Assembly (NCBI GenBank): GCA_958299035.1
Contig: CATQJL010000001.1
Location: 84,073,071 to 84,137,070, forward strand
Origin: Cylicocyclus nassatus
Taxonomy: Eukaryota; Nematoda; Chromadorea; Rhabditida; Strongylidae
Length of the DNA stretch: 64,000 nt
Direction: 5' to 3'
In this document: in pieces, positions 8,977 to 61,661 of the stretch
Layout: every line of letters begins with the position of its first letter
Position numbering within the stretch: the stretch's first letter is position 1
Made by a program: the position numbers and the translations under genes
The notes under the pieces: model-generated
Told to the model about the DNA's origin: nothing
The model's database searches: none
What the model saw: only the letters and a program-made list of their open reading frames with translations

Positions 8977-9369
8977 ATGAAGCTTCTCCTCTTACTTCTT
9001 GTACTTCCCCCGTTGAGCATTGCGGCTTCTTTGGCAGAAACAGAAAAGCAATTCTGCTCTGAAGGATGCCCAATACCTACTAAAAACGGAGGGTCCGAAT
9101 GCTAAGGTCAACGTGAAGGTGGGTTCATCTTGCTTATTTCCAAGATTGGAAGATGCTTTTCAAGAAAATGATGGACAAGTGTAAGAAAGACTCCAAAGTG
9201 CCAAAAATAGTCTGTGAAGTGATGAAGAAAGAAATGAAGAAAGACAAGTTCATGCTGATGGTTTGTCGACAACGATTGGTTTCTAGTTTCCAATGATGTG
9301 TGTGTGTGTCTGTTTTAGCTTGTGGAATGGGGCTACACATGGAAACAGCTTTGCGATCTTTGCAAGTAA
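8977..9369 (+). pseudogene. Secreted six-Cys saposin-like protein, copy 1, frameshifted
   Basis: Exons are 8977-9118, 9165-9260 and 9319-9369; introns are 46 and 58 bp. Exon 1 starts with a Leu-rich signal peptide (MKLLLLLL) and reaches FCSEGC. One extra A near 9072-9073 relative to the other copies shifts the frame and gives a stop at 9103-9105. Exons 2 and 3 remain open and end LCDLCK. Splice sites are intact and AATAAA is at 9405-9410. The cysteine layout (two near the start, one in DKCK, one in IVCE, a final CxxC) resembles saposin-like proteins, with a Pro between Cys3 and Cys4 as is common there. The single-base break could be real or an assembly error. Confidence 0.75.
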
Positions 9370-9856
9370 TTGTGTCTCTTGTGTCAAATGCAAGCTATCT
9401 TCACAATAAAATGAGGGAAACTTCTCTTGGTTATCAATCGCCGATGACCTCTATCCGAAGTTGGTGACTGAAGTAACATCGGGACGTAGTCTAAACGGAA
9501 CGAGAAGCTCTTTGCATAAGACCGGTTCTTATCATCGGGAAAATTAGTAATTGCTGCTCTATCCGAATCTCATTTTTGTGCACGTCAAAGACGTGCTTGT
9601 ATCAAATTCATTCCATTATTACGAATGCGGTTTCTAGTTTTTGGATTGCAAGTAATTGCTGATAGTGCAAAACAAGCTCTGCCATACGTATTTGAACAGT
9701 GGCAGAAAGTCTGGTCCGGAAGTCTCAAGCCAATTGCATAATTTCAATCAGGGATAACACAAAAGTTTCCTTTCCCGCGGAAACTACACAATCATACTTC
9801 TTATTTTACGTGAGCCAAACCAAATCTTAAGCGTGCATTCCACGCATTATGTTAAA
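9370..9856 (+). repeat. Downstream part of gene-copy unit 1
   Basis: The sequence after the AATAAA matches, inverted, the downstream flank of copy 3 (about 34110-34580) up to a shared edge at GCATTATGTTAAAAA. Together with about 700 bp upstream (8207-8925) it shows that the duplicated unit is much larger than the gene. No further gene is seen. Confidence 0.65.
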
Positions 9857-10925
9857 AACTAGCTGGCTTACCCGGCTCCGCCCGGCCCTGTCAATGCTAT
9901 GATTAAGGTTTCATCCCTATCCCTGTAGAACCTTTCATTGTGCCCACTTCTACATGCAATTCCCTATTCCCGCTGTGTTAGTAATTAGCATGCCCACCTA
10001 CCTCCCTCAACAACCCCCCGCCCCGTAGCTCAAACTTTGCAAAAAAGCAATAAAACCGGTAAAAGTAAGGATGATTCTGAAAACTGATGGCGCTATTCGG
10101 CTATTCAACCCCATAATGTTTTTATGATGGATCTTGCTCAAAGTCGGTACATGGGGATTATTAAAGCTGCTGATGACCGTAGTCATTTCGCGCGATAGCA
10201 CCATTTTCTGGGTTTAGTTGGGTACACATAAGAAGCTAAAATCATGGATTTCGCTGAAACTTTGAGGGGGGCTAGTTGACATGCTGATTACGAATATCAT
10301 ACTCCTTCGGCATTTTGAGGCGATTTCACTGAGTTATGGTAGGTATACTGCAGAGGGGCGAAATCTCAGTTTTGGCTGAAACTCGGTCTAGAGAGATTCG
10401 ACCTTCTGACCACATCTAAAACACTCTCGTTGCGTTTTGAGACATTTTCACAGAGTTACGGTAGGTACATGGCAGCGGGTAAAAATCATGAACCTGCCTG
10501 AAACCTTGGCAGAAACAAGGTAAGTCATTTGCACAATGACTTACCCGTTCAGGTCGCGAAATTTTTGAAAGTTACTTATATGAGTTATAAAAATCTGCAA
10601 ATGACTTGTTTATTTTTGTAAACAATTAAAATAATTTTTAAAATTTTTTAAAAATTCAAACTAGCCTTATAAAAAAATTTTTTTCGGGGGCGTGGCTGAC
10701 GCCACGCCCCCTTTTTCCAGATTTCAGGGGTTGGGGGCCCGCAAAAATTTTGAGAAGCCCCCCTAAAATTTTTTCGGAGTGCGTGGCTGACGCCACGCAC
10801 CTTCATTTGAAAAAAATTTTTGCCGCGCCCCCCCGAGCCGAAATCCTGGGTACGCCACTGATACATACATACATACATACAGACAGACAGACAGACAAAC
10901 AGAGATTCAGCTTTATATATAAAAC
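9857..10925 (+). repeat. Repeat element starting ACTAGCTGGC and ending in tetranucleotides
   Basis: It begins exactly where similarity between gene units 1 and 3 stops, with AACTAGCTGGCTTACCCGGC. It contains about 120-bp subunits like those at 14540-15580 and then hairpin-forming GC-rich blocks (GGCGTGGCTGACGCCACGCC near 10688). It ends in (ATAC)n(AGAC)n and TTTATATATAAA. The GC-rich block recurs at about 39960-40190. Class uncertain. Confidence 0.5.
10860..10905. repeat. (ATAC)n/(AGAC)n microsatellite
   Basis: About five ATAC units run directly into about four AGAC units. Confidence 0.9.
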
Positions 10926-11077
10926 TAGCGACCCTACGGGCCGCTAGTAAGTGGGTGGTGGCAGATACATTGATATCTGCCATTAATTAACTAAAAATCC
11001 CAAGAAAGAGAATTTCCATCTTCCCAGCGACCTTTCGTGTGTTGTGAGTAGTAGAAACAAAACACTATGCTCTTAGG

Positions 11078-11500
11078 AAAAGAAGCTACTACAAGTGACT
11101 AGTCAGACAGTCGACGGCATACCTCCGGAGCAGAAGTGGCAGAGCCGCTGCGTTTCCCCAGCTGCCACTCGTGCTCCGGAGCCCTCCCATTTTGTGCTCC
11201 GGAGACCTCCCATTTGTGCTCCGGAGCCCTCCCATTTTGTGCTTCGGAAACCTCCCATTTTGTGCTCCGGAGATCTCCCATTTTGTGCTCCGGGGCTCTC
11301 CCAAATCTGGCGTACCTCCAGAGCAGAGATTTGCGCGTCCCGGAGAGGGATCCCACTCGCCTGCTTGTGACGTCACCGTGACCTACAAGAAGGGACCGCC
11401 CCTCGCTCAATGGTCAATTGGGTCCTCCGCGGCTCTGCCAGATTTCTACTGTCCTCCGGAGGTACGGCACCGACTGTCTGATTATCCGCAAAGCATCTCT
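11078..11500 (-). repeat. Minisatellite-bearing repeat, copy 2
   Basis: Inverted near-copy of 4194-4430 (11078-11330), followed by a further segment with two more CCTCCGGAGG boxes. The long frame on the plus strand at 11171-11740 runs through these repeats and is judged non-coding. Confidence 0.75.
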
Positions 11501-11667
11501 GCTGTTCCTCTTGCAGATACCTTCGCCCAGATAGCACAGCTGTTAAACAAGGAAGCTACTTCCAAGCACCTATTAAGAACAGCTATTCATTCCAAAACTC
11601 AGATTGATTTCCAGGAAAGGTGCCATGTTAAGGAAATCGCCAAGTTATGTCGCCCAGCAGCCGAAAA

Positions 11668-12117: not shown

Positions 12118-12129
12118 CAGATATGTAGA

Positions 12130-14470: not shown

Positions 14471-14539
14471 AGGCAGGCCAAAGTGAATCTATTACAACTT
14501 TAGGTAAATTTACCGTCTTCGTCAATTCCGAATGGATTA

Positions 14540-15700: not shown

Positions 15701-15819
15701 AAGATGTCGAAAACTAGCTATCAGGCTGTCCCCTATGTTCCCCTAGGTTCCGTTCGCTTTAACTTTTAACCGTAACAAGTCATATATTTCTTATTTCTAG
15801 ATAGGTTTCAAGGTAATTT

Positions 15820-16370: not shown

Positions 16371-16689
16371 TACTGCTGGAGACCAGATGCGGGCAAAAGT
16401 ATGATATTTTCCATCATTTGGTGTCTTAGGCTTTGACGTCGATGAAAATCGAAAGCAGCGTTGAGAGTTTTTTCGTCTACAGAAGCCTGCAAAAGAGGAC
16501 TCGGATTTTGAAGGAATGCCTAAAAAATGCGTTAGAAAATCTAATTTTTGGAGTGCCATTGAAATTTTTGTACACATTACACTCCCAGATATTGGACGGC
16601 GAATGTAATATCAAACAATTTTTATTTTTTGTTCTAAAGCTATCTGTGCAACTAAATGGGAAAGAAAGTTTCTAGTCAAGAAGATTTCT

Positions 16690-19600
16690 ACTACAGAAAG
16701 CTACTGATGGCAACATTTCCTATTGGATACTGTAACACACATATGAACCATATCACATGACAGATTACATCCATTTTCTATTGAGCAAATATAAAAAAGA
16801 GCGAAAAAGGATTTGAGACATGAATCCGAAAGAAATGGGTAGTTGCAAACTTTATAGAGCATCTTCATAAATTGCAAATGATTACCTTTCCAGAGAATTG
16901 AAGAGATCATGCTTGAGCTCTATATGATCTAAGGCGTGCTGCAAAAGCAAAAAAGTCCTCAAACTTGGAACGTAATGAAGTTTTCTAATAAAAAAGCCAG
17001 TTCAAAGATCAATATAAAATGATCACTTCATTCCAGAGAGAACAAACTGATTTTCCATTGAAGTAGAAACATCCCGATCGCAACATCAGCAGAAACTCTT
17101 GTTACGGAAGAAATTCCAGTAAGACTTGCTCAGCACCGGATTTGTTTGAATTGTTTCTTTGTTTGCATTTTTCTAATCTTTGGTGCAAACGAAAAAATCT
17201 GTGAATTACGGCATTTGTACTACGGTACTCGCATGTTTCACTTCGTTGATGCTGATGCGCGATCTCCAGTTGTTGTCGATGTTGACGGTCATCAGCCTCC
17301 TCTTTCAACTGAGGTGTTTTCCTGTTTATTTTCTCAGTACTTGCCTGCAGGGACCACATGTCAGCTTTCCATGTCGCTGAAGTGCTAATTTGGTCGAGGA
17401 GGGAGGGGAGGGGGGATGGGAGCGGTGGCAAAATCAAGCGCTAATTACGGCTCGTTGCGGATTTTACAGAGAAATCATTTGATATGATTGAGAAAAACTG
17501 GAAAAATTGTCAATGAGGGAAGTTTCGTGGTCAAAATCTTGAAGATTCTACTCTAATTCTTCTGGCCACATGATTGTCATGGACGCATTGAGTTGGAACA
17601 TTGGAACATAAGTTGCACCAAAAATTCCAAAAATGCATCTAAGAATGCCCAGAACACCGTTTCGAACTATCCATCTCATCGTATCTTTTACTTTGTATAA
17701 ATTATTGTAAATATTTTTTGGTATACATGAGTGATTTTATTTCATATGACAAATCTCAAAAATAAAAATTTGGAACTTAGGCTTCTCGCAGAGAAGTCAT
17801 ATCAGCAAATAGACACAAACTAGATCCTACGTTATGAAAACGAGTTAGGAAGTAAAGTTAAAAATTTCTGGGCTTTTCAGTTTTTCGGATTAAAGTTTAG
17901 AAAACGCAGCGTGTGCTTGCCTTCAACAGGTCTGTTGTCGCCATATGACAATTTTAACTTTCTAATTTATAATATTTCAAGCAATTTCATTGACCATGGA
18001 GGAGTTTACGGACCTCCAAAAATTTTTTGGAGAATTATTCTAAAATAAATTAAGAACCAGAGCCTCCCCTCATAATTGAGTCGCGAAATCTCTGCCAATG
18101 CTCTCACTGGCTACGAATTCGTGAAAGCAATGTGTTTCTAACTATTTCGTTACAATAATTGTTATCTATCTGATTTTCTTTGAAGCGACTATCCTTTTAT
18201 TGATTATAGCCATAACTCGCGAAATATCAAAGAATGTCTCAAAAGAAAAACCTCCAAGGGGTGACTAACGCCCTCTATACCTAACAATAAGAAGAGCATT
18301 TATCGCGCTTCTTCCCTTGTCCTCTTCCATCCCCCCCCCCCAATCCTGGAACACACAAGGATTGTCCCGGTTTTCGAAAGTGCCGGCCAAATTTACAGGT
18401 CGGAAACGCTGTAATGTAATCAGTCAATATGATTTGGAATTTGTGTGTTAACCAACTTGATACCCAAAAAAATCTCGCATTTGTTACACCTGCCCAAGAA
18501 ATGGAAATTTTGATAAAAACTGCGGCGAATGCTGACCAAATTGTAGATATTCTCAAAATTTCAACTGATAATGAGTAAATGTATTCTTCAGAGTCTGGTA
18601 AAAATTACTTTTTCTTGAGGCCCGTCATTCGTTCAGATAAGCCTATCTGCTTTTTGACTTGCATGACTTCCAAACTTACTGCTGTTCTGTAATCTGCGTC
18701 ATAGTGAAAATTTTCGTCTCGTCTCCATCAACGCGGAGGCGGAGCTGTGCCAAAAAGTTGCGGACAAGTAATCTTCCTTTTTTTATCGCTCATTTTCGGA
18801 TGGAAAAAAAAGATGAAAGAATGAGTGGTTGCATGAGGTGATAGAGCTCTTCAAGAGCTACAATCCACACATTGCGCTTTCTGGAAGAAATGAATTTTAA
18901 AAAATAAGAGTCTTTTCTCAAAGAAAGTCCGAAAATGGCCGCGTCATAATGTCGCGGACAATAATTCTTCGAATGCGGAAATTTTCCTTCACGTATTTTA
19001 TGGGGCAAACAAAATTTTCCTGAGAAATAATCATACTGTATTTTAGAGCTCACCGAGGACAAAAATCAGATAATGGTTACTTCCAAAAAACCCAAGCTTG
19101 AGTTCTATTTTGAGTTTTCCCAAGAAATAACTTCTAATTCCTTTTTGCAAGCCCAATTCCTCCACATGGAAACCTATTCAAGGCATCCCAACAAAGCTAT
19201 TCGGATGAAGTGGATGCTCTTTGCCATCTTCTATGCATCGGATATGTACCGGCCAGTTTCTTTGCTAAAAATGGCTCTTGACAGTGCGTGCACATGACTC
19301 ACCTGCACCTTACCACTGACTCGCACCGCTTGCAGGCTTGTAGCTCGACTGGCGGTCATTCTACAAGCCTGCGCATAGGCTCATTCGAAAGAGCATGACT
19401 TTCGCGACACGATGATATGCAAGTGGGTTGAAATTGGAAAGTCGCGGAGATTTCATGGATAGGGTGAAAAAGCGCCCTTGGAGGTGAATGGAGTGAAGGC
19501 TCTTATCACACTAGATAGAGCTCCGAAATGGACCTCTTACAAGATAATTGACAGTTTTGAACTTCCAGATGGAACCGGTGGCAAAATGAGCTTTGCTCAA

Positions 19601-22600
19601 CATTAACTGAAAAATCCTTAGCCTACCACTGAAGCACCTCTATCTTGTCGGGATTGCCTTTAAGTCTACTTACTGATATGACGTCTCTGCGAGAAGTTGT
19701 AAGTTCCAAATTTTTATTTTTGAGTTTTGTCATTTGGAATAAAATCACTAATGTATATCATAAAATATTGCATATAAGTCATACAATGAAAAAGGTACTT
19801 ACAGTTGAAAGCTGCTCTGGACATTTTTGATTTATTTTCTGGAAATTTTTGTGCAAGACTTATGTTCCAACTTAATATGTCGATATTCATATGGTCAGAA
19901 GGATTAGAATAGAATTCTTCAAGGATTCTTGTGATCATGAAACTTCGCTCTTTGAAAATTTTTTCAGCTTGGTTTTCAATCATTTTTTAGGAACATTTTC
20001 TCAGCATCGGGTATTAGAGTATCAAATGATTTCTTTATGAAGACCGCAACTAGCCATCATTAGCGCGTGATTTACCAACTCCCCCCCCCCCCCCGAATTA
20101 GCACTTCAACGACATGGGAGCGTTGACATGTGGTCCCTTGCATGGAGCACTGAGAAAATAAACAGGAAACACCCTCCGTTGAAATAGAAGGCCGATGATC
20201 GTCGACATCGACAACAACTGGAGACCATGAATTCAAACAAAGTAATAAGTACTGGTGTCTAGCCAAGCCCTGAATCTGCAAGGAGAATCTGTGTTGAACT
20301 GGCAATCGGGAAGTCTCCTATTCAGAACTAGTGCTCTAAACTGGCTTATTTATAAAAAAAAACTTATGATTCCAGAGTTTATATGCTATTTTAGCTTTTA
20401 ATAAGATGCGCAAAGAAATAACTCATGTAAATTTCTAAAATGGTATGCTACATAACTTGCAAAAAATGTTTAGTTTATGTCTTTAATGCTTTTTCGCTCT
20501 TCACGCAACTTGCATTATAAAAATTGGAAGTAATCTTTCATGTGATTAGGTTCATATTGTTGTAACATTAAACAGGAAATGGTGTCATGTATTTTTCACC
20601 AAAAAAATCTTCTTGACTGCGAACTTCTTTACCCCTAATATATGGCACGGGTAGCTTTAAAACAAAAATGAAAAATCGTTTGATATCATACTTGCCGTCA
20701 TATTTCTGGGAGTTAATGTGTACGAAATTTCAAAGGCACTCCAAAAATTCTGATTTGCAAAATATTTGGCACTCCTACTGCGTGCTTATGTAGATTTTTG
20801 GAGATAACTGAACGGAGAAATTGACGCCTCGAAATAGATACTTGCTGCTGTCACTTTATGGATCAGAAATTCCTCATAATTAAGGTAATAGCCAAAGCTT
20901 CGCCCATTTCTGTAACCTTTAGATTAGCACACCTTAACTACAATATTTGAAGGGAAATCCAGCTATTCTGCGCGCGAAGAATTCCAAAATTTCATAATTT
21001 GGCGCTTACAAGCCTACAACAAGCAGGCTCAAAAAATTGAAGATTTTTGATTTATCTTTTCTTTTCGCAGAGCTTCTTCATTGGAGTCTTTTCTATACAC
21101 ACGTAAACTCATGGCATGCGGCTACAAGATAAGCTGATTGCCAGCCATACGAACAAAACTACAGTACCCACACTAATTATTCGACAGAAAATGCAAAAAC
21201 TGACGATCCGCGTTTTTTTCGTTTTTCCTTCATAACTTCCTTCAAATTGCATAAAATACAAATTCGAAGAAAGCATGATGCGCAGCTCGTCAAGGTGAAT
21301 CTTCTGATATATTGCACTCTCGTACCATTCTGTTTTCAATCTGCTCGATTTTTGTGTGAGGACGGGTATTCGTAGTGGTGTAACTCAGCGAAGAACACAC
21401 ATGGACGATTCAAGTAAACATGGGTCAGTAGTGCTGTCCCCGTAGACTATCATATATTAGTGAGTAGCGAAGGATTCCCTTTCCATTGGCAAAGATAGGC
21501 CGTTTAATTTTGAAAAATCGATGCCTCTCAAATTTTCGTTACGGTAACCCTACAGTAAGACACTAATTTGCAAAGCAGGCGTGTTTTTCGTGATCAGCAG
21601 GTTAGATAACCTCTATGCGCAAGTTTTCCAAGGAAATCAGAACCTTTCATTTTTTCTCCTTCTAAGCTGTGAAGCTCTCCGACGGGTTTTGGCTACAATA
21701 TTGATGATCTTGGATTGACCGGAAACTTCCAAAGCTGTCCATTTTCTTCCATTTTTGCTCAGGTCTGCTTCATGTGTTCTAGATGGCGCTGCGTAGTCTC
21801 GCATTGTATTGAAAGGGACATGGACAGGTCTCTAGAACACATGAAGTAGGCGAACAAAAATGGCAGAGATGGACGAGCGCAAGAAGGTTCATCTTCCCGG
21901 ATACATGATGAGACCCGCGTTCAATCTTCAACTCCGCTTCAAGTTCACAGCTTTTCTCATCACAAGGAGAAGCGGGATAGAAGAAAGAAAGGAGAAACAA
22001 CGACATGGAAAAAGGAAAGGGGCGGAGAATGCCCAAAAACGAAACTCATCAAAACAAGAGACAAGTCTTAATTCATGCAATTTCGAAATTGCTCCTACTC
22101 CCTAATTCATAGCAGATGGCTATGGAAACTACGCAGGGGCTTCCTGGAACAAATGGAATGAGTCTGTGTACAAATAAAGCGAAGAGAAAATGGACGAGCG
22201 CAAGAACACACATTTTTTCGCATACGCAGAACAGAAATTCTTTAACCCCGCTTTGAGCTCGAAGTTCTGCTGATCAAGAAAAAGAAGCGGGGTAGAGGAA
22301 TAAAGCCAAAATAAGAGAAAGCTGAAAAAACCTTGAAAACGGTCAAAATTCTCCAATTCCCGCCGTTCAAAACGCGTGCGGGGCGGCTGCAGCGCATGCA
22401 GCACAGTTGCAGTTCCCTCACAGTTCCCAGCACAGTGCGGGAATATTGTGGGACTGTGCGGAAACAGTTCCGGAACATGGGAACTAGTATGAACCTAGCC
22501 TTAGGAGCCTAACTGGTCTGATAGATTACATTTCGTCATCGGTCGATATCGGCTTATCGATTTTTTGCAAACTTCGAGTTACAGGTGTAAGAGTTAGCAC

Positions 22601-26411: not shown

Positions 26412-26742
26412 AAGCACAAAAATGAGATTCGGACATAGCAGCGATTACTGATTTCCTCAACGACAAGAACCGGTCCTATGCAAAAACTTCTCGTTCCGCT
26501 TGGTCTACGTATGACAACTGCATATTAGAAGAGTAGCCCCTCGAAACAGCCTTCTAAGCAATCATGGTCTTTCGGACGTGCAGTGATAAATAAACTGTGT
26601 TGACATATAATTGCAATTTGAACGGTTTGATCGATGTTACTTCAGTTACCAACTTCGAATGGAGGCATCTGCGATTACTAGCTAAGAGATGTTTCTCTCA
26701 TTTTATTGTGAAGACAATTTGCATTTCACACAAGAGACACAA

Positions 26743-27133
26743 TTACTTGCAAAAATCGCAAATCTGTTTCCATGTGTAGTTCTCTTCCGCATACTAAAAC
26801 AAACACACACACATCATCGGAAACTAGAAACCAATCGTTGTCGACAAACCTTGGCAAAGTTGTACTTTTCTTTTTTCTTGATTTCGTCCATCGCTTCACA
26901 GACTATTTTTGGCACTTTGGAGTCTTTCTTACACTTGTCCATCATCTTCTTGAAAAGCATCTTCCAGTCATTGGAAATAAGCAAGATGAACCCACTTTCA
27001 TGTTAAACTTAGCATTCGGACCCTCCGTTTTTAGTAGGTATGGGCACCCTTCAGAGCAGAAGCGTTTTTCTTTTTCATCAGCAGGAGCAGCAATCAACGG
27101 GAGAAAGACAAAAAGTAAGAGAAGAAGCTTCAT
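26743..27133 (-). CDS. Secreted six-Cys saposin-like protein, copy 2 (intact)
   Basis: Exons, in reading order: 27133-26996, 26948-26850 and 26793-26743; introns are 47 and 56 bp. The frame is open for 95 codons. Residues 1-16 form a Leu-rich signal peptide. A KR pair precedes Cys1 in RFCSEGC. Then follow DKCKK, PKIVCE and a final ICDFCK. The spacing is C-x3-C-x21-C-x10-C-x28-C-x2-C. Saposin-like proteins have six cysteines with a similar middle spacing and a Pro between Cys3 and Cys4, but usually CxxC at the start and a longer last gap, so the assignment is tentative. It is predicted to be exported, small and Lys-rich; membrane or lipid interaction would be inference. The TATA box is altered (TACAAAA, 27161-27167 reversed), so expression may be weak. 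Exons 2-3 are identical to copy 3. Confidence 0.75.
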
Positions 27134-28200
27134 AATGCAACTATCTCACCTGATCGGGCCTTTTGTAGCGCTGTCATCTTGACACTAATCGCTCGGATTC
27201 AAAGTCGTCAAATTCACAATCAGAACATGCATGCACTCAAGCAAAACAGAAGGACAAAAAATATTCAGCATAATCGCACAGTATTGATTTCATCTATTTG
27301 AGTATCACAGCCACTATCGAAATGGGTAGCTCTATACAAGCCACGATAAGACACTTACACAGAACAACATGTAGGTAGCTTAGGTGGCTCTATACATGTC
27401 ACGAAATGCAGCTCATACAGAACAACATGTTCAAAACTAACTCAAAGCCTTTCTACATTTTTACTGATTTGCATCGAAAAAGCTGCAGAATTAGCTCTGA
27501 ATTGCTTGATTCGTTTACTGTCATGTTCCGAGGCTAAAAGATCTAAAGTTGTTTGGAAATCATAAAGAGATTTATTGTAGCATTTGTTAGTTGATCTTGT
27601 TTTCCGCAATTGATCATTCTTAGGCTCCTGCCAGAGTGCCGAAGTTATGCCAGCGCTACGCCAGCATTTCGATCGATACACGTGTATTTCGTTGGGGACG
27701 TCAGCTAGCCCCGCTTCAACGAAATACACGTGTATCGATCGAAATGCTGGCGTAGCGCTGGCATAACTTCGGCACTCTGGCGGGAGCCTTAGGTGCAACT
27801 GCCATTATGTTCCATTTACAGCAAAAGGTTATCGCTCATGTTTGTTATGCGCATAAATTGACTTCCAAATAGAAAGTGACTTCGTGTTTGAAAAGTGGAG
27901 CCATTAGAAATTCCACTTGTCCATACCTCAGATCTCAAACATAGAAGGAACATTATGCATGGAATACGTGGTTGAAATTTGGTTGCCCACAATAAAATTT
28001 AATTGTGCAAATGGGAAGAAATTTTGATCAATCTCTGATTCTTGAGTTGGAAATAGATACCGTTTGCATTTTGTGAAATAAAGAATAGAAGTAGACTCAC
28101 GCGAAGTCGTGTAAGTGGGGCGACGGTCGCACGAGTTATGTACGGTCGTCTGATTCATATGACATCATCATCGCGTGGCCACATCTCGCTTTAAAGCGGG
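27134..28200 (-). repeat. Upstream flank of gene copy 2, shared by all units
   Basis: This sequence recurs upstream of copies 1, 3 and 4 and at 53650-54480. Shared landmarks are AGTATCACAGCCACTATCGA, ATTTTTACTGATTTGCATCG, AGATCTAAAGTTGTTTGGAA and ACATAGAAGGAACATTATGC. It has a MITE insertion at 27623-27788. The frame at 27442-27798 crosses that insertion and is not a gene. Confidence 0.7.
27623..27788. mobile_element. 166-bp palindromic MITE, TTA duplication (PIF/Harbinger-like)
   Basis: The ends are GGCTCC...GGAGCC and the arms are nearly perfect over about 65-70 bp. TTA lies on both sides (27620-27622 and 27789-27791). The homologous flank at about 48200-48225 (ATTCTTTAGTGTAACTGCC) is the unoccupied site. 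TWA duplications and GGC-starting ends fit PIF/Harbinger MITEs. High arm identity suggests recent insertion. Confidence 0.85.
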
Positions 28201-28212
28201 CAAATTTTGTAA

Positions 28213-34581: not shown

Positions 34582-34975
34582 TTACTTGCAAAAATCGCAA
34601 ATCTGTTTCCATGTGTAGTTCTCTTCCGCATACTAAAACAAACACACACACATCATCGGAAACTAGAAACCAATCGTTGTCGACAAACCTTGGCAAAGTT
34701 GTACTTTTCTTTTTTCTTGATTTCGTCCATCGCTTCACAGACTATTTTTGGCACTTTGGAGTCTTTCTTACACTTGTCCATCATCTTCTTGAAAAGCATC
34801 TTCCAGTCATTGGAAATAAGCAAGATGAACCCACTTTCATGTTAAACTTAGCGTTCGGATTCTCCGTTTTTAGTATGTATTGGCACCCTTCAGAGCAGAA
34901 GCGTTTTTCCATTTCATCAGCAGGAGCAGCAACGATCAACGGGAGAAAGACGAGAAGTAAGAGAAGAAGCTTCAT
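34582..34975 (-). CDS. Secreted six-Cys saposin-like protein, copy 3 (intact)
   Basis: Exons, in reading order: 34975-34835, 34787-34689 and 34632-34582; introns are 47 and 56 bp. The frame is open for 96 codons. The signal peptide is MKLLLLLLVFLP-like, and a short acidic spacer ends in KR before FCSEGC. The rest is DKCKK, PKIVCE and ICDFCK at the terminus. TTTTATA at 35003-35009 (TATAAAA on the coding strand) is 34 nt upstream of the ATG, and TTTATT at 34541-34546 gives an AATAAA signal. Exons 2-3 and both introns are identical to copy 2, while exon 1 and the flanks differ. With promoter, frame, splice sites and poly(A) signal all in place, this is the best-preserved short copy. Function is unproven. 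Confidence 0.82.
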
Positions 34976-35020
34976 AATGCAAACATCTCACCTGTTCGGG
35001 TCTTTTATAGCGCTGCCACC
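34976..35020 (-). promoter_or_regulatory. TATA promoter of copy 3
   Basis: TATAAAA on the minus strand (35003-35009), inside the family-conserved GGTGGCAGCGCTATAAAAG block. Confidence 0.75.
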
Positions 35021-45329: not shown

Positions 45330-46250
45330 TATGAAAGCAGAGCTTGCTTTGCATTATCGAGTAGTTAATTGTTCGTAAATCCAAAAAGGAGGCTAATTCA
45401 AACAGCAACGAGCAGCGCAGATTCAAAGGCAACGAGATATAATGCATCCCTTCGCAAACCATCCCCTCCCTCTCAGCGGTAATATAGCGCACACAGGCTT
45501 TAGAAGAGCTCAAAAAGTTCCCAAAGATTTCATAAGTTATGTGATTTCCAGAAGTTTTCAAGAAGTTTTTCATCTTTGCAGTGCTTAACGAGAAATACTC
45601 GAAAAGTAAGAGGAGCTCCATGCTACAGATCTAATCGGCTCTTTCAAAGCGCTGCCACTTTTATGATATATTATTCAAAATAAATATTATGACCCCAAAA
45701 ATTAGCGTATAAACTATCTTAAACGGAAGAGCAAAAGATTATTAAGGATGATCGCTTTGTGTTGATTTCTCCATTTGGGTACTACAATTACGGTGAGATC
45801 GAAGTGCAAAGTAGCTACATACAAGCTATAAATCGCAGGTTCTCATATGTACAGATCTGGTAAAATAGCTAGTTTTGACATTTTGGTGATTCTCATCGAA
45901 AAGCTGCAAAATTAGCCGTGAATTGTTTTCTTCGTTTGTTGGTATTTTTTACAAGGATATCAGATCCTTTCTTGTCCAGGAATCATGAACAAAGCATCTA
46001 TTTGCAGGAATTTTGATCGAGTTTGTATTCATCATTTTTTAATGAATATCCGCTTGCCATTAGTTTCTGTTTACAACAAGTCTCCATATTCTTTATGTGC
46101 ATAGAAATAACTTTCAAATGCACACCAAGGTCCTGCTTGAGAATACATAATTTACAAATTTTGAACATCTTGTCTTCAGCTTTAATTTCACAGATAGAAG
46201 GAACAATTGTATTCTATTCAAGAAAAATATAGCGGTAGTATGTGGAAATG
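45330..46250 (-). pseudogene. Relic of secreted six-Cys gene unit, copy 5
   Basis: The ATG at 45619-45621 is followed by MELLLLFEYFSLSTA, an eroded form of the family signal peptide, and CGCTGCCAC-type promoter sequence lies upstream with the TATA box mutated (TTTCAAA). The FCSEGC exon and the other cysteine exons are missing. Sequence at 45331-45385 resembles the far downstream flank instead, so the gene body is deleted. Upstream flank similarity extends to about 46250. The open frame at 45307-45621 is therefore unlikely to make a family member. Confidence 0.6.
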
Positions 46251-46369
46251 TAATAGTGTATCTGTGAGCAAGTTGGGATTTTTCTAGGATTTTTTCAGAT
46301 GGATTTACGATTTTCTCTCTATTTCTTGGGGGGTTGGATCCTCTAAGTTTTTTGCTTAAAATTCGAGTT

Positions 46370-47277: not shown

Positions 47278-47781
47278 TCAAGCAGTTTGGGAGTTCTTTT
47301 TTTTGAGAGCAAGTTTTTTTGACTTTTTTTTGAAAGCTTTTTTTGATTTGCAGTCATCGCAAACTTGTTTCCATGTGTAGAACTTGACCGAAAACTAAAA
47401 ACACACATCATCGAAAACTAGAAGCTCATAGTTGTCGGCAAACCTTCAAAAGTGTGTCATCCATGTTCACCAAATCACAGACTACTTTCGGTACTTTGGA
47501 ATCCTTCTTGCACTTGTCCGCCATTTTCTTGAAAAGCATCTTTTAGTCATTGGAAATAAGCAAGATAAACCCACCTTCACGTTGAACTTAGCTTTTGGAC
47601 CCTCCGTTTTTAGTACGTATGGGCACCCTTCTTTGCAGAAGCGTTCATAGTCTTTTCTATCGAAGATGCGTTTAAAATATTCATCAGTCTCAGCATCAGA
47701 AAAAGCTTCGCCATCATCATCATCAGCAGCAACAGCAATGCTCAACGGGAGGAAGACGAGAAGTAAGAGAAGAAGCTTCAT
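47278..47781 (-). CDS. Secreted six-Cys saposin-like protein, copy 4 (long form)
   Basis: Exons, in reading order: 47781-47575, 47527-47444 and 47394-47278; introns are 47 and 49 bp. The frame is open for 135 codons. After the signal peptide comes an acidic insert of about 25 residues (ADDDDGEAFSDAETDEYF) not found in copies 2 and 3, then ERFCKEGC, DKCKK, VVCD and VCDDCK. A Lys-rich tail of about 24 residues (SKKAFKKKSKKLALKKKN) extends beyond the usual stop, apparently from inserted sequence before the ancestral 3' end. Acidic propeptide plus basic domain would balance charge before processing; that is inference. TTTTATA at 47809-47815 and TTTATT at 47175-47180 give the TATA box and AATAAA signal. 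Confidence 0.78.
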
Positions 47782-47825
47782 AATGCAAATATCTCACCTG
47801 ATCGGGTCTTTTATAGCGCTGCCAC
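47782..47825 (-). promoter_or_regulatory. TATA promoter of copy 4
   Basis: TATAAAA (minus strand, 47809-47815), 34 nt from the ATG, in the conserved GGTGGCAGCGCTATAAAAG context. Confidence 0.75.
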
Positions 47826-48540: not shown

Positions 48541-51500
48541 GTCCGGAAATTAATGTTCACATAAGACATCTATATACGCCCGCTCTATATACGATTGCAT
48601 AGAAGTCAATCTGCTTTAGAAAAAAGCTGGTTCTAAGAGCAAACGCTTGCTCATCAACAAAGAAAGCCATAGGATCAGCTGGTCTTCCAACAAGTGAGGC
48701 GAAATTACTGCGATAACGCATGATTGTTAATACTAATGCAAAGAACATTGCTATGAGATTGCATGCTTTCGTTCCACATGACTGATTTTTGTAAAACACA
48801 AAATTCTGTTATATCGACAGTATGAGTTGAATGTCAAGTGTGACGGGAAAGATAGAAGAAGATGGAGCTGATTTGAAATCTGGAGGAAGTTTCTAAACAA
48901 TCGCATAGAGAAATATTAGATTGTTGCAAAAATAATGTCGTTTTGCGCGATTTTACTTTGGAAGGCTATAACTTTGTCCAGTCTTCATATTTTCGAATGC
49001 AGTCAAGACCATCAGAAACAGCAAACCTTTCGTAATTTAGTGCATATTTGCTCATACTGATGTCACAAACGGGAAGAAACCATGCTTTAAAAAACTGAAA
49101 GTTTATTTTTTGAAAACCTCGTCTTTGAGAGCTTACAACTCCCTTCTAGTTTTGTTCGTATGGCTGGCTATCAGCTTATCTTGTAGCCGCAGGCACAAGT
49201 TTACGTGTGTATAGAAAAGACTCTAACGAAGACGTTCTGCGAGAAGAAAAGATAAAAATCCAAAAATGTTCACTTTTTTGAGCCCGCTTGCTATAGACTT
49301 GTAAGCGCCAAATTATGAAAATTTGGAATTGTTAGCGCGCAGAATAGCTAAATTTCTCTTCAAATATTGTAGTTAAGGTGTGCTAATCTAAAGCTTACAG
49401 AAATGGGCGAACCTTTGGCGATTACCTTAATTATGAGAAATTTCTGACCCAAAAAGTGACAGCACCATGTATCTATTTCAAGGCGTCAATTTCTCCGTTC
49501 AGTTATCTCCAAAAATCTACATAAGCACGCAGTAGGAGTGCCAAAAGAATACTTAAGAAATCAAAATTTTTGGAGTGCCTTTGAAATTTCGTACACATTA
49601 CACTCCCAGAAATTTGACGGCAAGTGTAATATCGAACGATTTTTCATTTTTGTTCTAGAGCTACCTGTGCCATATTTTGGGGTAACGAAAGTTCCAGCCA
49701 AGGATTTCTTAGTGAAAAGTACATGAGACCATTTCCTGATACTGTAACAACAATATGAACCTATTCACATGACAGCTCACTTCCATTTTTTATAATGCAA
49801 ATATGCGTGAAGAGCGAAAAAGCATTAAAGACATAAACTAAACATTTTTTGCAAGCTATGTACTAAATCATTTTAGAAAAATTACATAAGTTATTTCTTT
49901 GCGCATCTTATGCTTCAAGCGTGCTACAAAAGCTAAAGTAGCATATAAACTCTGGAACATCATAACTATTTTTTTTTTTTTACAAATAAGCCAGTTTAGA
50001 GCACAATGAAGTGCTACAATGACTTCAGTTTCGAAATTCGTTGAAAGTAGGAGACTTCCCAATTGCCAGTTTAACACAGATTCTCCTTGCAGATTTAAGA
50101 ACTTTCTCCAGTTGTTGTCGATGTCGACGATCATCAGCCTTCTATCTCAGCTGAGGGTGTTCTCCTGTTTATTTTCTCAGTGCTCGCCTGCTAGGGACCA
50201 CATGTCATCGCTCCCTGTGTCGTTGAAGTGCTGATTTGGGTAATCTGAGGGGGGGGGGGAGAGTGGTGATATGGTGGTAAATCATGCGCTAATGATGGCT
50301 AGTTGCGGCTCACAAAGAAAGCATTTGATACTATACCCGATGCTGAGAAAGTGTTCCTAAAAAATGATTGTAAACCAAGCTGAAAAAATTTTCAAAGAGC
50401 AAAATTTAATCACAAGAATCTTTGAAAACTTCTATTCTGATCCTTCTGACCATATGATTATCGACATATTATGTTGGAACATAAGTCTGGCACAAAAAAT
50501 TCCAGAAAATAGATTGAAATGTCCAGAGCAGCCTTTCAACTGTAAGTATCTTTTTCATTGTATAACTTATATGCAATATTTTATGATATAAATTAGTGAT
50601 TTTATTCCAAATGACAAAACACAAAAATAAAAATTTGGAATTTACAACTTCTCGCAGAGACGTTATATCCTAAATAGCCTTAAAGGTAGTGTCCCGACAA
50701 GATGGAGGTGCTTGTAGTAGGCTAAGGATTTTTCAGTTAAAGTTGAGCGAAGCTCATTTGGCCAACGGTCCCATCCTGGAAGTTCAAAACTGTCAATTTT
50801 CTTGTAATAGGTCCATTTCGGAGCTCTATCTAGTGTTGATAAGAGCCTTCACTCCATTCACCTCCAAGGGCGCTTTTTCACCCTATCCATGAAATCTCCC
50901 AAACTTCCCAAACTCATTCTTTTGCATATCATCGTGTTGCGGAAGTCATGCTCTTTCGAATGAGCCTATGCGCAGGCTTGTAGAATGACCGCAGGTCGAG
51001 CTACAAACCTGCAAGCGGTGCAGCTCAGCGGTAAGATGCAGGTGGGTCATGTGCACACACTGTCAAGAGCCATTTTCAGCAAAGAAACTGACCGGTACAT
51101 ATCCGATGCATAGAAGATGGCAAAGAGCATCTATTTTATCCGAATAGCTTTGTTGGGATGCCTTGAATAGGCTTCCATGTGGAGAAATTTGGCTTGCAAA
51201 AGGAATTAGAAGTTATTTTTTGGAAAAACGCAAAATAAAACTCAAGCTTGGGTTTTTTTAGAAGTAACCACTATCTGATTATTGTCCTCGGTGAGCTCTA
51301 AAATAATCTCTCAGGAAAATTTTGTTTGCCTCAAAAAATACGTAAAGGAAAATTTTCGCGTTCGCACAATTACTGTTTGCGACATTATGACGCTGCCATT
51401 TTCGGACTTTCTTCAAGAAAAGATTTTTAAGTTTTTTAGAATTCATTTCTTCCAGAAAGCGCAATGTGTCGATTGTAGCTTTTGAAGAGCTCTATCACTC

Positions 51501-53645
51501 ATGCCCCTCATTTTTTCATCTTTCTTTTCCATCCGAAAATGAGCGATGAAAAAAGAAAGACTACTTGTCCGCAACTTTTTGGCACAGCTCCGCCTCCGCG
51601 TTGATATAGACGAGGCGAAAATATTCACTATGATGCAGATTACAGACAGCAGCAAGTTAGGAAGTCATGCAAGTCAAAAAGCAGATAGGCTTATCTGAAC
51701 GAATGACGGGCCTCAAGAAAAAGTAATTTTTTCCAAACTCTGAAGAATACATTTACTCATTATTAGTTGAAATTTTGAGAAGATCTACAATTTTGATCAG
51801 CATTCGCTGCAGCTTTTATTAAAATTTCCATTTCTTGGGCAGGTGTAACAAATGCGAGATTTTTCTTGGGTATCAAGTTAGTTAACACAGATTCCAAATC
51901 ATATTGACTGATTGCATCACCTGTAAATTTGGCCGCACTTTTGAAAACCGGGACAATCCCTTTGTATTAGAAGATTTTTGGGGAGTGGGAGGGGGGGGGG
52001 GAGGGAGGGGGGGAGGGAAGAGGAAAAGGGAAGAAGCGCGATAAATACTCTTCTTATTGTTAGGTATAGAGGGCGTTAATCACCCCTTGAAGTTCCTTCT
52101 TTTGAGGCATTCTTTGATTTTTCGCGAGTTATGGCTATAGGACAGTCGCTTCCAAAGAAAATCAGATAGATAACAACTGTTCTAATGAAATAGATAAGAA
52201 CACACTGCCTTCACGACTTCGTAGCCAGTGAGAGCATTGGCAGAGATTTTGCGACTCAATTATGAGGGGGGGGGGGCTCTGGCTCTTAATTTATTTTAGA
52301 ATAATTCTTCAAAAATTTTTTGGAGATCCGTAAACTCCTCCATTTTCAATGAAATTGCTTGAAATATTATAAATTAGAAAGTTAAATTTGTCATATGGCG
52401 ACAACAGACCTGTTGAAGGCAAACACGCGCTGCATTTTCTAACCTTTAATCACCGAAAAGTTGAAAAGCCCAAAAATTTTTAACTTTAGTTCCTTATTCG
52501 TTTTCATAACGTAGGACCTAGCTTGTGTCTATTTGCTGATATGAATTCTCTGCGAGAAGCCTAAGTTCCAAATTTTTATTTTTAGGATTTGTCATTCGAA
52601 ATAAAATCACTCATGTATACCATAAAATATTTACAATAATTTATACAAAGTAAAAGATACGATAAGATAGATAGTTCGAAACGGTGTTCTGGGCATTCTT
52701 AGATGCATTTTTGGAATTTTTGGTGCAACTTATGTTCCAACTCAATGCCTCCATGACAATCATGTGGCCAGAAGAATTAGAGTAGAATCTTCAAGATTTT
52801 GATCACGAAACTTCCCTCATTGACAATTTTTCCAGTTTTCTCAATCATATTAAATGATTTCTCTGTAAAATCCGCAACGAGCCGTCATTAGCGCTTGGTT
52901 TTGCCACCGCTCCCATCCCCCCTCCCCTCCCTCCTCGACCAAATTAGCACTTCAGCGACATGGAAAGCTGGCATGTGGTCCCTGCAGGCAAGTACTGAGA
53001 AAATAAACAGGAAATACGCTCAGTTGAAATAGGAGGCTGATGACCGTCAACATCGACAACAACTGGAGACCGCGCATCAGCATCAACGAAGTGAAACATG
53101 CGAGTACCGTAGTACAAATGCCGTAATTCACGGATTTTTTCGTTTGCATCAAAGATTAGAAAAATGCAAACAAAGAAACAGTTCAAACAATACCGGTGCT
53201 GAGCAAGTCTTACTGGAATTTCTTCGTAACAAGAGTTTCTGCTGATGTTGCGATCGGGATGTTCCTACTTCAATCGAAAATCAGTTTGTTCTCTCTGGAA
53301 TGAAGTGATCACTTTATATTGGGCTTTTAACTGCCGTTTTTGTTAGAAAATTTCATAACGTCCCCAATATGGACTTTTTTGCTTTGTAGTAGGCCTTAGA
53401 CTTATAGAGCTCAAGCATAATATCTTCAATTCTCTCAAAAGGTAAACTACTGAAGTTTAGGAGAATGTTTTATGAAGTTTGCAACTACCCATTTCTTTCG
53501 GGTTCATCTCTCTAATCCTTTTTCGCTCTCTAGTATATTTGCATGATAGAAAATGAATGTAATCTGTCATGTGATTTTTCATATGGGTGTCAGAGTATCA
53601 AATAGGAAATGGTGTCATCAGTAATTTTGTCTAGTAGAAAGTAGT
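48540..53645 (-). repeat. Segmental duplication A, inverted copy
   Basis: Inverted relative of 16690-24960 lacking the 21162-23573 insertion. The G-rich tract near 51987-52018 and the shared landmarks (TGACGGGCCTCAAGAAAAAG, CACTCCATTCACCTCCAAGG) align. The small frames are not supported as genes. Confidence 0.7.
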
Positions 53646-56600
53646 ATTTTCTATAGCGCTGCCACCTTGATACTAATTGCTGAGTCAAATTCGTCAAATT
53701 TGTCAAATTCGCAATCAGCCCATGCACTAAAGCAAAACAGAAGAGCAGAAGAATAAATTTCTACTATCGAAGTGGGCAGCTCTATAGAAGCTACGAAATA
53801 AAGACACTTATACAGAACAGCATGTAGGTAGCATAGGTGCTCTATAAAGGTCACGAAATACGATCACTCATACAGAATCACATCTTCAAAACTCAGTCAA
53901 GGTCTTTCTACATTTTACAAATTTACTGATTTGCGTGAAAAGCTGCAGAATTAGCTCTGAATTGCTTAATCAGTTCGATGTTCCAAGGCTATAAGATCTA
54001 AAGTTGTTTGAAAATCATAAAGAGAATTATTGTAGCATTTGTTAGTTGATCTTGTTTTTGAAAGTTGATCGTTCGGTGTAACTGCCATTGTTTTCCACTT
54101 ACAGCAAAGGTTTATCGCTTACATTTGTTATGTGCATAAACTGAATTTCATATCTAAATGACTACGCGTTGAAAGGGAGTCATTACAAATTTCAGTTGTC
54201 TTTAGCTCTAATCTCAAACATAGAAGGAACACTTTGCATGGAATACATGGTTGGTTTGCCCATAATGAAGATAATCTATTTGTGCAAATGGAAAGAAACT
54301 TTGATCAGTATTTGATTCTCGAGTTGGAAATAAAATACCGTTCGCATTTTGTGAGATAAAGACGCGAACCGAAGTAGACTCACGCGAGGTTGTGTGGGTT
54401 GGGAGACGGTCGCGAGTTATGTAACGGTCGTCAGATTCATGTGACATCGTCGTCGCGTGGCCACATCTCGCTTTAGAGTGGAGAAATTTTGAATCCAAGG
54501 ACACCATTTGGAAGTAGGTACGGTGGGCTTACGGTAGAAAGTCTATTTATAGAGATACGCTTGAAGCTCTGCAAAGAGGGCTTACTCGATCTGTTCATTA
54601 CAGAATAATATTTATTTTTTACAGTGGTGGTATACTGTAGAGTTACATTATCTCTATGATGAGGACCAATTTGCACATATACATGTTTGGAAATTTGCTC
54701 AGAGGGGCTTTCAGATGCGATTATAATAAACTGACTCATTGACTCTCTCATGCGATTGATGTGAGCACGGTAAGTGTACTGTAGTCTGCCAGGTTTAACT
54801 AATTTTTCCAAGTTTCTCATCAGATGGGTTACTTAGGTTGATCACATGCACTACACGATTTGAACAGTTATGACTTTAGAATGTAAAAATGCCCGGCGAT
54901 ATTCGTCGCCGACTTCGCGGAACTCGCCAACTTGGTCGAATTCGCCAAATTCGCCGATTTCGCTGAGATTTTCACGTTCTACTGTCATAACTGTAATTGC
55001 AGGCCACCGTGAGTGAGATATCGTGGAATACTCCACAAAAACCGGATGTAGTTGATTCTAAACGTCCACTTTATCATATTTGATCGTATTAAACGCAAGA
55101 TCTCAAAACATTAGTCTTCATGTCCCAGCGAAGCAAATTAACCTCCTTCAAACAACTAAGGATCTTGTTCCGCAAAGTGAGAGTCGAGCAGAACGTTTGT
55201 CAGTTTTGTTAGCTGTCTACCACAATTTTGTAAGCTAGAAATTCTTACTGTATCGCACTTATTAAAGCTTACGTTTATATGAAAGCTTTCATGGCTGTGT
55301 AAATATCATTGCCATTTTCAATATCAACTTCCAATTTCATACGAAAGGTCGCATCACGAAAAGGTGAAAGGCGGCGAATGATTGAGGTATGCCGTTGAGA
55401 GTTCCCAAAGAAACAACAATTACATGACATGACACTATGAAAGTACTATTAGTCCATGCTCTCCCTTTTCTTTATAAAAGCGAAATCTTTGAACTGAATG
55501 GAACTGCTTCTTGCTTAAGTGTTGTAAATTTTTTCCCATTTTAAAGCCGAAAATCCTCAGTTGGTACTTATTTGCTATTTCTGATTTTGAAGCATATCAA
55601 ATTCTAGAAAAGAGATTCATTCTGTGTATCCCATAAGTCAATACGTAGCATGAAAATTGTGTTTTGTTTTTAGTACGAGACAATTTGAAAAACTGTAAAT
55701 CTTTTTTTAAATTGTAGAATTGCTTTGTGGTATCTCTTTCACTTTCATAAAAAGTTTCACACATTTCAAACGAGTTAGCCATTTCTTCCAAAGTAAATTT
55801 TTCGTTCATGATATTTGCAAGTAAAAAACAGCCGGGTAACCTTGAACACCATTTTCCTTCCTCTTTGAGACCCTACTCTGTCGGAGGAAATTCAACAGCG
55901 TGTAGCCTTGAAAATTTTTGCCTTTTGCTCATGAACTTACAAACCTTTTTCGAATGTGTATAAAGTCGTTGAGTAAAAACATTCGAGACTATACCAACGT
56001 TAGAGTTGGCTTAGTAATTTCACTTACGTCAATTTTTAATGAAAAGGGTGCCTGTTTTAGCCTCACGATGTCGAAACTGCACTGGATTCGAGTGGCGGTC
56101 AGTAATTTTCCGTTTCTTCAACGAGTTCCATCCCCGCGCATTTTTTCGTCTCTCCTCGGACTTGATCTAATTCAGAGGGAAAGCATTGATTGGAGTGTAG
56201 GCGAACCAAAATGGATTGTTAACACGTTTAAGACCGCGAAATCGCGCGCGGCGAATAAGAGTGTACTCTCAGCCGTTAGCCTATAAAGAGACCTTAATTC
56301 GCAGCTTGTGGGCTACATCTGTAATTAGCATGTCAGGTAAGCTCCATACCGAAAGGACTTTTGTGCTTTCTTGAAAGATAGGATTAGGAACTCAGTTTCA
56401 AATAGTATTCAAAAGTATCTATGTTGTATACGGAACACATTATTATCGAAAATACGGTTTTTCTCCTTGAAATCGAAGCAAAGTAAAGGTGCGACGTCGC
56501 ACGCGTCGTTCGTCCTATATTTGTTTGGGAGATATGAGGATAAATCGCAGAATTGAACGAAGTGCGGCAACGCGAACCGTTGCGAGACGGTCGCCCGCCA

Positions 56601-60045: not shown

Positions 60046-60302
60046 AATGATTTTTAATTGCTAAATAATACTCGATATTCGGATATTTGTTTAAGAATTC
60101 CAAGTTTACTAAATATAGTAGATTATCGTCACTATGCCCCGGTTTCTGCCATTCTCGTCGCGCCCATTGTTACTATCTTATATTAATTCGCAAGGGAAAA
60201 TGCCTTCCATGAAATTATGGTCAAAGTACCGATAAAACCCTTTCGACGCCACCTTCATTTTGCAAGCATATGCCCACGTTCTATCGTCAAGTCGTCAATG
60301 CA

Positions 60303-60430
60303 TGGACTGACCGTAAATTGCGGAGCACACGCGGCGCCTCTGTGTCACTGAAGCACGATCACTAACGAATATTGTACCGATACAAGCGTTTGGCCGCCCG
60401 GCTTGTGCTCCGCAATCTACGGTCAATCCA
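60303..60430. mobile_element. MITE with CCGTAAATTGCGGAGCAC ends, copy 2
   Basis: 26-bp inverted ends with two mismatches. Relative of 46894-47020, located in the downstream flank of copy 6, a similar position to that in copy 4. Confidence 0.75.
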
Positions 60431-60613
60431 ATGACTCTGCGGTATGTGGAGTTTTCGGGCGTGCAGAAATGGATCAGGTTTAGCGTATGATAATTGCAAT
60501 TCAGAACGCATAATCGATGCCATCAACTTATACCGAAGTCATTACCAATAACATTGTGACGTTTTCTGATTTTATATTGCGGAAGACAACTTGCAATTCA
60601 CAAGAAGGACAAA

Positions 60614-61661
60614 TTACTTGCAAGACTGGCAAACCGCTTTCCATGTGTGATACTTTCCATATTTCTGAAACACACATCATGAAACCAGAAAACCAAGCGT
60701 TGTCTGCAAACCTTCAAATATTTGTCCTCTTCCCATTTGTTCGCATATTCGCAGACTGTTTTTGGTGTTTTCGGATTCTGCTTGCAATTTTCCCACAGAT
60801 GCTGAACGGAGTTTTTCAGTCATTGGGGTCAAAACAAGATAAACCCACTTTTATGTCGATCTTAGCATTTGGATTGACCGAATTTGCTAGGTGTGGGCAC
60901 ACTTGAGAGCACAACTGCTCTCTTTGTTCAATAACAGCAGCAATGCTTAACAGGGGAAGTACGAATAGTAAGAGAAGAAGCTTTTTTTTATCCTTGCATT
61001 CTTCCCTCAGAGGGGGTCTGCTGCTCTGGTTAGTCTCTTCCAGACTTCTCGATCTTCAGCTTGATCTTCTTCTATCTCAAGTTCTCTCAAGTCCGCTTTC
61101 ACTTTGTCTATCCATCTCAATTTCGGCCTCCCTCTTGGCCTCTTTCCAGGTACTTCGACTGACATCACCAACCTAGCGACATGATCTTCCGCTCGTCTTC
61201 TAACGTGTCCATACCATCGCAATCTCTTCTCTTGTATCTTCTTGACGATAGGGGCGACCTTCATCGTAGCTCGTATGGTGTCGTTAGTGACGTGGTCCAG
61301 CATCGTGACTCCCGCTGTCCATCTTAGCATGCGTGCCTCCATCACACCAATCCTTCGTTCGTCTTCTCGCGTGCACGGCCAACATTCGCTGCCATACAGA
61401 GCAGTCGGGCGGACTGTAGTGCGATACAGCTGGGATTTTAGCTTGAGTGGCATCTTCTTATCGCACAGGACTCTTGTGACACTTCTCCATTTCGACCAAG
61501 CTGCATTTATTCTGCTGGTTATTTCGTCCTGAAGCGTACCATCTGCGGCGATGCGACTTCCTAGATACTTGAATGTCGTGGTCTTCTTAATTGCGGCGCC
61601 TTCGATTTCTATAGTTCCAGGCGTTTGAGGTCCCACCTCCATGTAAGAGAAGAAGCTTCAT
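60614..61661 (-). pseudogene. Secreted six-Cys saposin-like protein, copy 6, split by a LINE
   Basis: The ATG is at 61659-61661. After about six codons of signal peptide the gene is interrupted by a LINE (60984-61642) and resumes to 60849. Exon 2 is 60801-60712 and exon 3 is 60664-60614; introns are 47 bp each, with TTCAG acceptors. Outside the insertion the frame is open: cysteines lie in QLCSQVC, ENCK, TVCE and VCQSCK, so the protein is divergent but keeps all six. TATAAAA (61689-61695 reversed) is 34 nt upstream. The otherwise undamaged frame indicates that the LINE inserted recently. Confidence 0.8.
60984..61642 (-). mobile_element. 5'-truncated RTE-like LINE insertion with 16-bp target duplication
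   Basis: A minus-strand frame (61642-61007) encodes a non-LTR RT C-terminus: TTFKYLGSRIAADGTLQDEI, TVRPTALYGSECW, MLRWTAGVTMLDHV and RLRWYGHVRRR. It ends close to an AT-rich tail (GGATAAAAAAA). The flanks are identical, GTAAGAGAAGAAGCTT at 60968-60983 and 61643-61658: a target-site duplication of 16 bp. The frame is undamaged for 211 codons. Confidence 0.88.

Follow-up and report, generated by a model that had tools for sequence, protein, structure and literature searches.

A small clustered gene family with six framework cysteines

Cylicocyclus nassatus is a horse strongyle of the family Strongylidae, and few worms of horses are as common as the cyathostomins. A 64-kb stretch of its genome, in the following called the window (bases 84,073,071 to 84,137,070 of a 107.7-Mb contig, C1, in an assembly of 514.7 Mb and 369 contigs), harbors genes for short proteins with six framework cysteines. 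A DNA self-comparison and an exon-wise tblastn search located five loci, c1 to c5, and two remnants, r1 and r2, in the window (Table 1), with expectation values (E) of the exon-1 matches from 2e-26 (c2) to 9e-10 (c5), obtained with a probe made from the same copies. This agreed with a first-pass annotation of the DNA, which had called the five loci full-length. That term holds for their extent only: an open reading frame was present in three of the five (c2, c3, and c4), exon 1 of c1 carries a frameshift, and c5 is split by an insert. Duplication accompanied by decay, by frameshift (c1), by deletion (the remnants), and by insertion (c5, with a 16-bp direct repeat at both sides of a 659-bp insert), had also been proposed and was borne out. 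The insert, for which Pfam gave no match, resembles the fragment of a retrotransposon 3' end.

Further copies were found outside the window, c6 to c10 on the same contig and d1 on another one, C316. This gave at least 11 loci in the assembly, ten of them inside 0.28 Mb of one contig; nine of the 11 (c2, c3, c4, c6, c7, c8, c9, c10, and d1) were intact. The count is a lower bound from genome searches with four family queries, which were the c3 DNA, the deposited proteins P0005 and P0006, and d1. Weak genome matches (L045 and L051 to L058) were rejected as further copies after three-frame translation around the match, in which the exon-1 motif was not seen. C. nassatus thus possesses a small gene family, mostly clustered, to which these loci belong and which has at least 11 copies, some of them decayed.

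The cysteine residues were spaced 3/21/10/27/2 in c2 and c3 and 3/21/10/22/2 in c4, and the overall range in c2, c3, c4, and c6 was 3/21/10/22-27/2. The spacings were 3/20-22/10/19-22/3 in c7, c8, and c9, 3/23/10/24/3 in d1, which has two extra cysteines further upstream, and 3/22/11/21/3 in c10, which has an additional C-C pair between Cys4 and Cys5. The layout given in the first-pass annotation, C-x3-C, C-x10-C, and C-x2-C, is correct for c1 to c6, to which the C-x2-C end is confined, but not for the other five members (c7 to c10 and d1), which end with C-x3-C. By parsimony, the x3 end may be the older one and the x2 end that of a window subfamily. All nine intact members possessed a T-W pair upstream of Cys5 and, as judged by eye, the leucine-rich amino end that had been noticed before. 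The family proteins have a net positive charge, and c4 carries an acidic insert upstream of Cys1 and a lysine-rich tail past Cys6 in addition.

Three exons were read in c2, c3, and c4, with phase-0 introns of 47 bp and 49 to 56 bp. Exon 1 ended in phase 0 in all nine intact genes and was followed by an intron 1 of 45 to 55 bp; intron 2 was also in phase 0 and had 44 to 56 bp in eight of them (48 bp in c6), and was missing from c10. Five of the splices match deposited C. nassatus proteins: c3 is letter for letter P0001, c7 is P0007, c9 is P0005, c10 is P0006, and d1 is P0008. Because the deposited models of c3, c7, and d1 equal splices made beforehand, the splices are independently supported, and the proposed architecture of three exons and two introns of about 50 bp was thereby confirmed; c9 and c10 were spliced after the deposited form was known. 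A 35-bp intron 1 had been dropped in favor of one of 47 bp, which the deposited protein confirms. Three protein searches returned no deposited model for c2 or for c8, which had been spliced alongside c7 and d1, in a database clustered at 90% identity that could hide c2.

The remaining deposited models differ from these readings. P0002 assigns a different first exon to c1, and P0003 follows the reading of c4 into early exon 3 and then diverges. P0004 fuses the intact c6 with the remainder of c5 (from C1:84141784 to window position 60614) into a two-unit protein, which may be either an artefact of the gene model or the product of a genuine transcript that spans the insert and fuses both copies.

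A 16-base promoter motif occurred nine times with up to 3 mismatches, compared to 0.42 expected matches, five times at gene copies, once each at r1 and r2, and twice elsewhere in duplicated flanks. A TATAAAA box was positioned shortly 5' of the start codon in c1, c3, c4, c5, c7, c8, c9, and c10 and was altered in c2, c6, and d1.

Table 1. Family loci, remnants, and associated features. Positions are those of the window unless a contig is named.
Feature	Position	Strand	Exons	TATA motif	Remarks
c1	8977..9369	+	8977-9118, 9165-9260, 9319-9369	8935-8950	
c2	26743..27133	-	27133-26996, 26948-26850, 26793-26743	27160-27175, altered, 2 mismatches	intact, 95 amino acids
c3	34582..34975	-	34975-34835, 34787-34689, 34632-34582	35002-35017	intact, 96 amino acids
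c4	47278..47781	-	47781-47575, 47527-47444, 47394-47278	47808-47823	intact, 135 amino acids
c5	60614..61661	-		61688-61703, 1 mismatch	start codon 61661, remainder 60983-60614
Insert in c5	60984..61642	-			direct repeat 61643-61658 and 60968-60983
r1	53649..54333	-			promoter block only, 72% identity to block 5' of c3
r2	45337..45989	-			upstream piece 45721-45989 (67%), downstream piece 45337-45387; degenerate start region kept, gene body gone
Identical stretch of c2 and c3	26723..27013	-			late exon 1 to just past stop
c6	C1:84141784	-			
c7	C1:84166387	+			
c8	C1:~84180125	+			
c9	C1:84202294	+			
c10	C1:84361128	-			
d1	C316, near 78453619	+			

Other elements are located nearby. Positions 16685 to 21161 and 49147 to 53640 form a pair of inverted repeats of about 4.5 kb with 87% identity, and the right copy ends at r1, which is cut beside it. 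A frame of 468 amino acids at 1367 to 2773 on the minus strand contains a reverse transcriptase and a GIY-YIG domain, as in Penelope-like elements. In the first-pass annotation, the family genes had been taken for the only convincing coding units of host type in the 64 kb; Pfam was applied to five of the 25 long frames of the window, and the frame just described was the only one with a match, the other four giving nothing at E ≤ 1.

Selection and possible gene conversion among the copies

The core of the proteins, counted from two residues before Cys1, had a lower non-synonymous than synonymous divergence (dN < dS) in all 36 pairs that the intact genes form, with dS saturated in 8. The frames are therefore maintained, with purifying selection acting on the cysteine core. 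In the region before the core, dN was nominally above dS in 6 of the 36 pairs, on few sites.

A gene-conversion-like tract of 291 bp is identical in c2 and c3, within flanks of which about a fifth differs between the two copies. The block upstream of c2 contains a near-perfect foldback of 76 bp (27619 to 27792; arms 97% complementary with 22 nucleotides between them; z, -24.9) that looks like a small hairpin element; at this place, the matching block of c3 reads through.

Exon and non-coding differences were compared in the six pairs among c1 to c4, with c5 outside this comparison and four further pairs, those with c6, discarded because its intron 2 had been taken as 26 instead of 48 bp. Exons differed more than all non-coding sites in three pairs. 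Between c1 and c3, the flanks were about 94%, the introns 95%, and the exons 81% identical (differences at 55 of 285 exon, 5 of 102 intron, and 50 of 892 flank sites; p, 2.5e-11), and the excess was also present in c1-c4 (p, 9e-6) and c3-c4 (p, 1e-6). No exon excess was observed in c1-c2 (p, 0.33; differences of 0.167 in exons, 0.049 in introns, and 0.216 in flanks) or c2-c4 (p, 0.93), and the exon differences in c2-c3 were below those of the non-coding sites. The changes between c1 and c3 were unevenly distributed, with 0 non-synonymous changes in 45.7 sites of exon 2 up to Cys4 versus 22.5 in 77.2 sites after Cys4 and in exon 3 (compared to introns, p, 1e-5). This exon excess can be the result of diversifying selection or of gene conversion in which a c2-like donor overwrote c3; the exons of c3 may come from such a donor, because c2 and c3 share the 291-bp tract in diverged flanks.

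Diversification of the exons under positive selection, in an arms race with the horse or with microbes, would leave the core fixed and the stretch past Cys4 hypervariable, as in c1 and c3, and would be in agreement with the three pairs showing the excess. It fails, however, in the other three pairs, the excess over the flanks may come from conversion as indicated by the identical tract of c2 and c3, and dN of the core stays below dS; moreover, c1 is a broken copy and the pairs are not independent of each other. Such selection, which would be compatible with the explanation preferred below, is unlikely. Alternatively, the loci may be passengers of repeats, either of a segmental duplication or of a non-autonomous element, mostly non-functional and with open frames that were left over. 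The flanking blocks were indeed duplicated along with the genes (longest aligned block, 1.9 kb), two of the five window copies are broken, with two remnants in addition, and the window is rich in repeats. Nevertheless, nine of 11 loci are intact with usable splice sites, and the constraint on the core is found in every pair. The genome-wide DNA search with c3 yielded 7 rows, all in the cluster (a lower bound, common words being skipped), and d1 retains the exon plan on a different contig. That the loci are mere passengers is highly improbable.

Possible relationship to saposin-type proteins

The proteins had been called saposin-like in the first-pass annotation. The predicted order of five helices and the partition into exons speak for this term, the cysteine spacings and Pfam speak against it, and neither the fold searches nor the comparison of profiles established it. 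The predictions did not, on the other hand, show a fold clearly unlike the five-helix saposin fold, the result that the first-pass annotation had named as refuting. AlphaFold2 models of P0001 (mean predicted local distance difference test score [pLDDT], 81.6; single sequence) and, weaker, of P0005 (mean pLDDT, 73.7; three sequences) both contained five helices in the order of saposins. Saposin C was among the Foldseek rows for both models, and VIA-align brought up saposin D with the P0005 model, with insignificant scores in all cases. Full-length profiles aligned Cys1 to Cys4 in register with an E of 1.8e-4, a score to which the signal peptide contributes.

The gene plan was compared with that of three canonical saposin-type genes of C. 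nassatus, L062 (PDB saposin C at E 2e-8; SapB_2 at 1.6e-5) and two neighbors assigned by similarity to L062, exon 3 being read in L062 only. Cys3 was residue 6 of exon 2, and a phase-0 intron 1 was located five residues upstream of Cys3, in nine of nine family genes and three of three canonical genes. A phase-0 intron past Cys4 was found in eight of the nine and in three of three (exon 3 read in one). Between Cys4 and this intron were 16 residues in the three canonical genes and likewise in c2 and c3, and 9 to 14 in six other members; c10 has no such intron. The family possesses the gene plan of the canonical C. nassatus nemapores, an unpublished criterion, and the agreement of the introns in position and phase suggests a nemapore-type origin. 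At C112:14428472-14441440, four saposin-type (nemapore) gene matches are located within 13 kb, three of which were read partly or wholly.

Several results weigh against this relationship. The saposin pattern C.{2}C.{23,28}C.{8,13}C.{23,26}C.{5,7}C, as published in the available part of PMC3184995, fitted none of the nine intact members but both controls, L062 and saposin C; four of the five spacings of c2 and c3 are outside this pattern. Pfam SapB_1 and SapB_2 gave nothing in eight of nine intact members, and c4, scanned through the deposited P0003 only, had no SapB match either; the positive control L062 was above the cut-off with SapB_2 and below it with SapB_1. A genome search with SapB_1 yielded 13 places, all of them on contigs other than that of the cluster, which is a weak negative because the place of L062 also scored under the cut-off (E 1.44). 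Sequence searches of Pfam, NCBIfam, and PDB with the family produced no saposin match. When the profiles of the mature parts without signal peptide were compared, with a canonical profile containing 2 sequences only, the only match was an out-of-register one of 11 columns, which was reached by 3 of 60 and 2 of 60 shuffles. Foldseek gave 2 and 5 rows with the two models and no clear match, and the family has the lower hydrophobic content. Nemapores are characterized in the available part of PMC10506718 by a signal peptide with one or more SapB domains behind it; the intact members have the leucine-rich amino end, and no SapB domain was recognized in them. Saposin-like proteins are connected by Cys1-Cys6, Cys2-Cys5, and Cys3-Cys4 disulfides, and the family has six framework cysteines. 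Under the current definition, it is not a member of the saposin-like family.

A collection of 5.8 billion proteins was searched three times, the queries being a single sequence, a 3-member profile, and an 8-member profile; with E limits of 1, 10, and 10, these returned 3, 6, and 8 proteins, and every one came from C. nassatus. No relatives outside this species were returned by this method, which needs shared 5-residue words and deposited models, with strongylid coverage unchecked, so that absence elsewhere is not proven. UniRef names the c3 protein “Saposin B-type domain-containing protein,” which is a label and not a test, and two other matches “uncharacterized.” Rows for cathepsin S, of which a profile search of PDB gave 17 (E 0.25 to 1.5), and for RGM_C, DUF2116, ChaC, DUF5461, and a zinc finger in Pfam were under the cut-off and discarded. 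No paper joining cyathostomins with saposins was found in the paper library searched, and the word “saposin” is absent from the main text of PMC10682056.

The family may instead consist of lineage-specific six-cysteine helical mini-proteins unrelated to saposins, with a coincidental agreement in cysteine number and the x10 interval, which would be a near twin C-x3-C unit of its own kind with a secreted host-interaction or antimicrobial role. This would explain why no credible saposin sequence match remained after removal of the signal peptide, and it agrees with the deviating spacings of c2 and c3, the return of C. nassatus proteins alone, and the Foldseek result. It does not account for the phase-0 intron places and the intron 1-to-Cys3 distance shared with three canonical genes of the same genome, for a helix order as in saposins, or for the appearance of saposin C or D with both models, albeit at insignificant scores. 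An unrelated origin is rather doubtful, and common descent with the saposin-type genes is somewhat probable. In the best reading, which has about an even chance of being correct, the family is a lineage-specific, more hydrophilic offshoot of the nemapores that would act outside the worm.

Proposed function and known systems

The explanation as a whole, for and against which the probabilities are balanced, would be that of secreted, disulfide-stabilized, mostly helical mini-proteins derived from nemapores and acting outside the worm. A nemapore-type (saposin-like) gene may have been the ancestor, in which the first and last cysteine spacings would have changed, hydrophobic residues would have been lost, and the T-W motif gained before Cys5. 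Transcription would occur from a TATA-type promoter a short distance before the start codon, the protein would exit the cell via the leucine-rich amino end, and the mature part would fold into five helices held together by three disulfides. Outside the worm, it may act via basic helices, with membranes or surfaces of microbes or of the host as the most likely target, and the stretch past Cys4, which is most variable between copies, may tune this target. Membranes are the site of action of saposin-type proteins in nematodes. By analogy to these, and because of the net positive charge, the protein is expected to be secreted and to act on microbes or on surfaces of the host, and its low hydrophobicity makes simple lipid extraction less likely. 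Nemapores are listed among the excretory-secretory products of Haemonchus contortus in the available part of PMC10506718.

A more far-reaching version is quite unlikely. A cyathostomin-specific family would have turned the saposin frame into a near-symmetric twin C-x3-C miniprotein freed from lipid binding, and gene conversion together with a hypervariable post-Cys4 stretch would renew secreted ligands aimed at gut microbes or the immunity of the horse. If the family is a remodeled nemapore, as preferred here, the cysteine frame of the saposins can drift outside its own definition. Motif-based surveys would then miss such members, as may be the case for that in PMC10506718, which, in its available part, admitted nemapores by a cysteine motif. 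Because intact, converted, and decaying copies occur side by side in a compact cluster, the evolution of a family of secreted proteins can be followed well at this site.

Twin C-x3-C helical hairpin proteins are one system for comparison. They resemble c7 to c10 and d1 in the C-x3-C at both ends, a likeness by description, but the family has a central C-x10-C (x11 in c10) and five predicted helices. The hookworm proteins Na-SLP-1 and Ac-SLP-1 have six conserved cysteines and a plan of four or five helices and were searched for by the saposin cysteine pattern (available part of PMC3184995). They are strongylid-type proteins and share the number of cysteines and, as far as predicted, the helix plan with the family, none of whose nine intact members fits that search pattern. 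Nemapores or caenopores, the saposin-like antimicrobial (SPP) proteins of nematodes, differ from the family in starting with C-x2-C instead of C-x3-C and ending with C-x5-C (L062) or C-x5/7-C (published pattern) instead of C-x2/3-C; the family has a shorter Cys2-Cys3 interval, is more hydrophilic, and is without a Pfam SapB match. Both are nevertheless alike in their short length, in the hydrophobic nature of the amino end, and in having six framework cysteines, 10 or 11 residues between Cys3 and Cys4, a stop soon past Cys6 in most members, and a three-exon partition with phase-0 introns at matching places.

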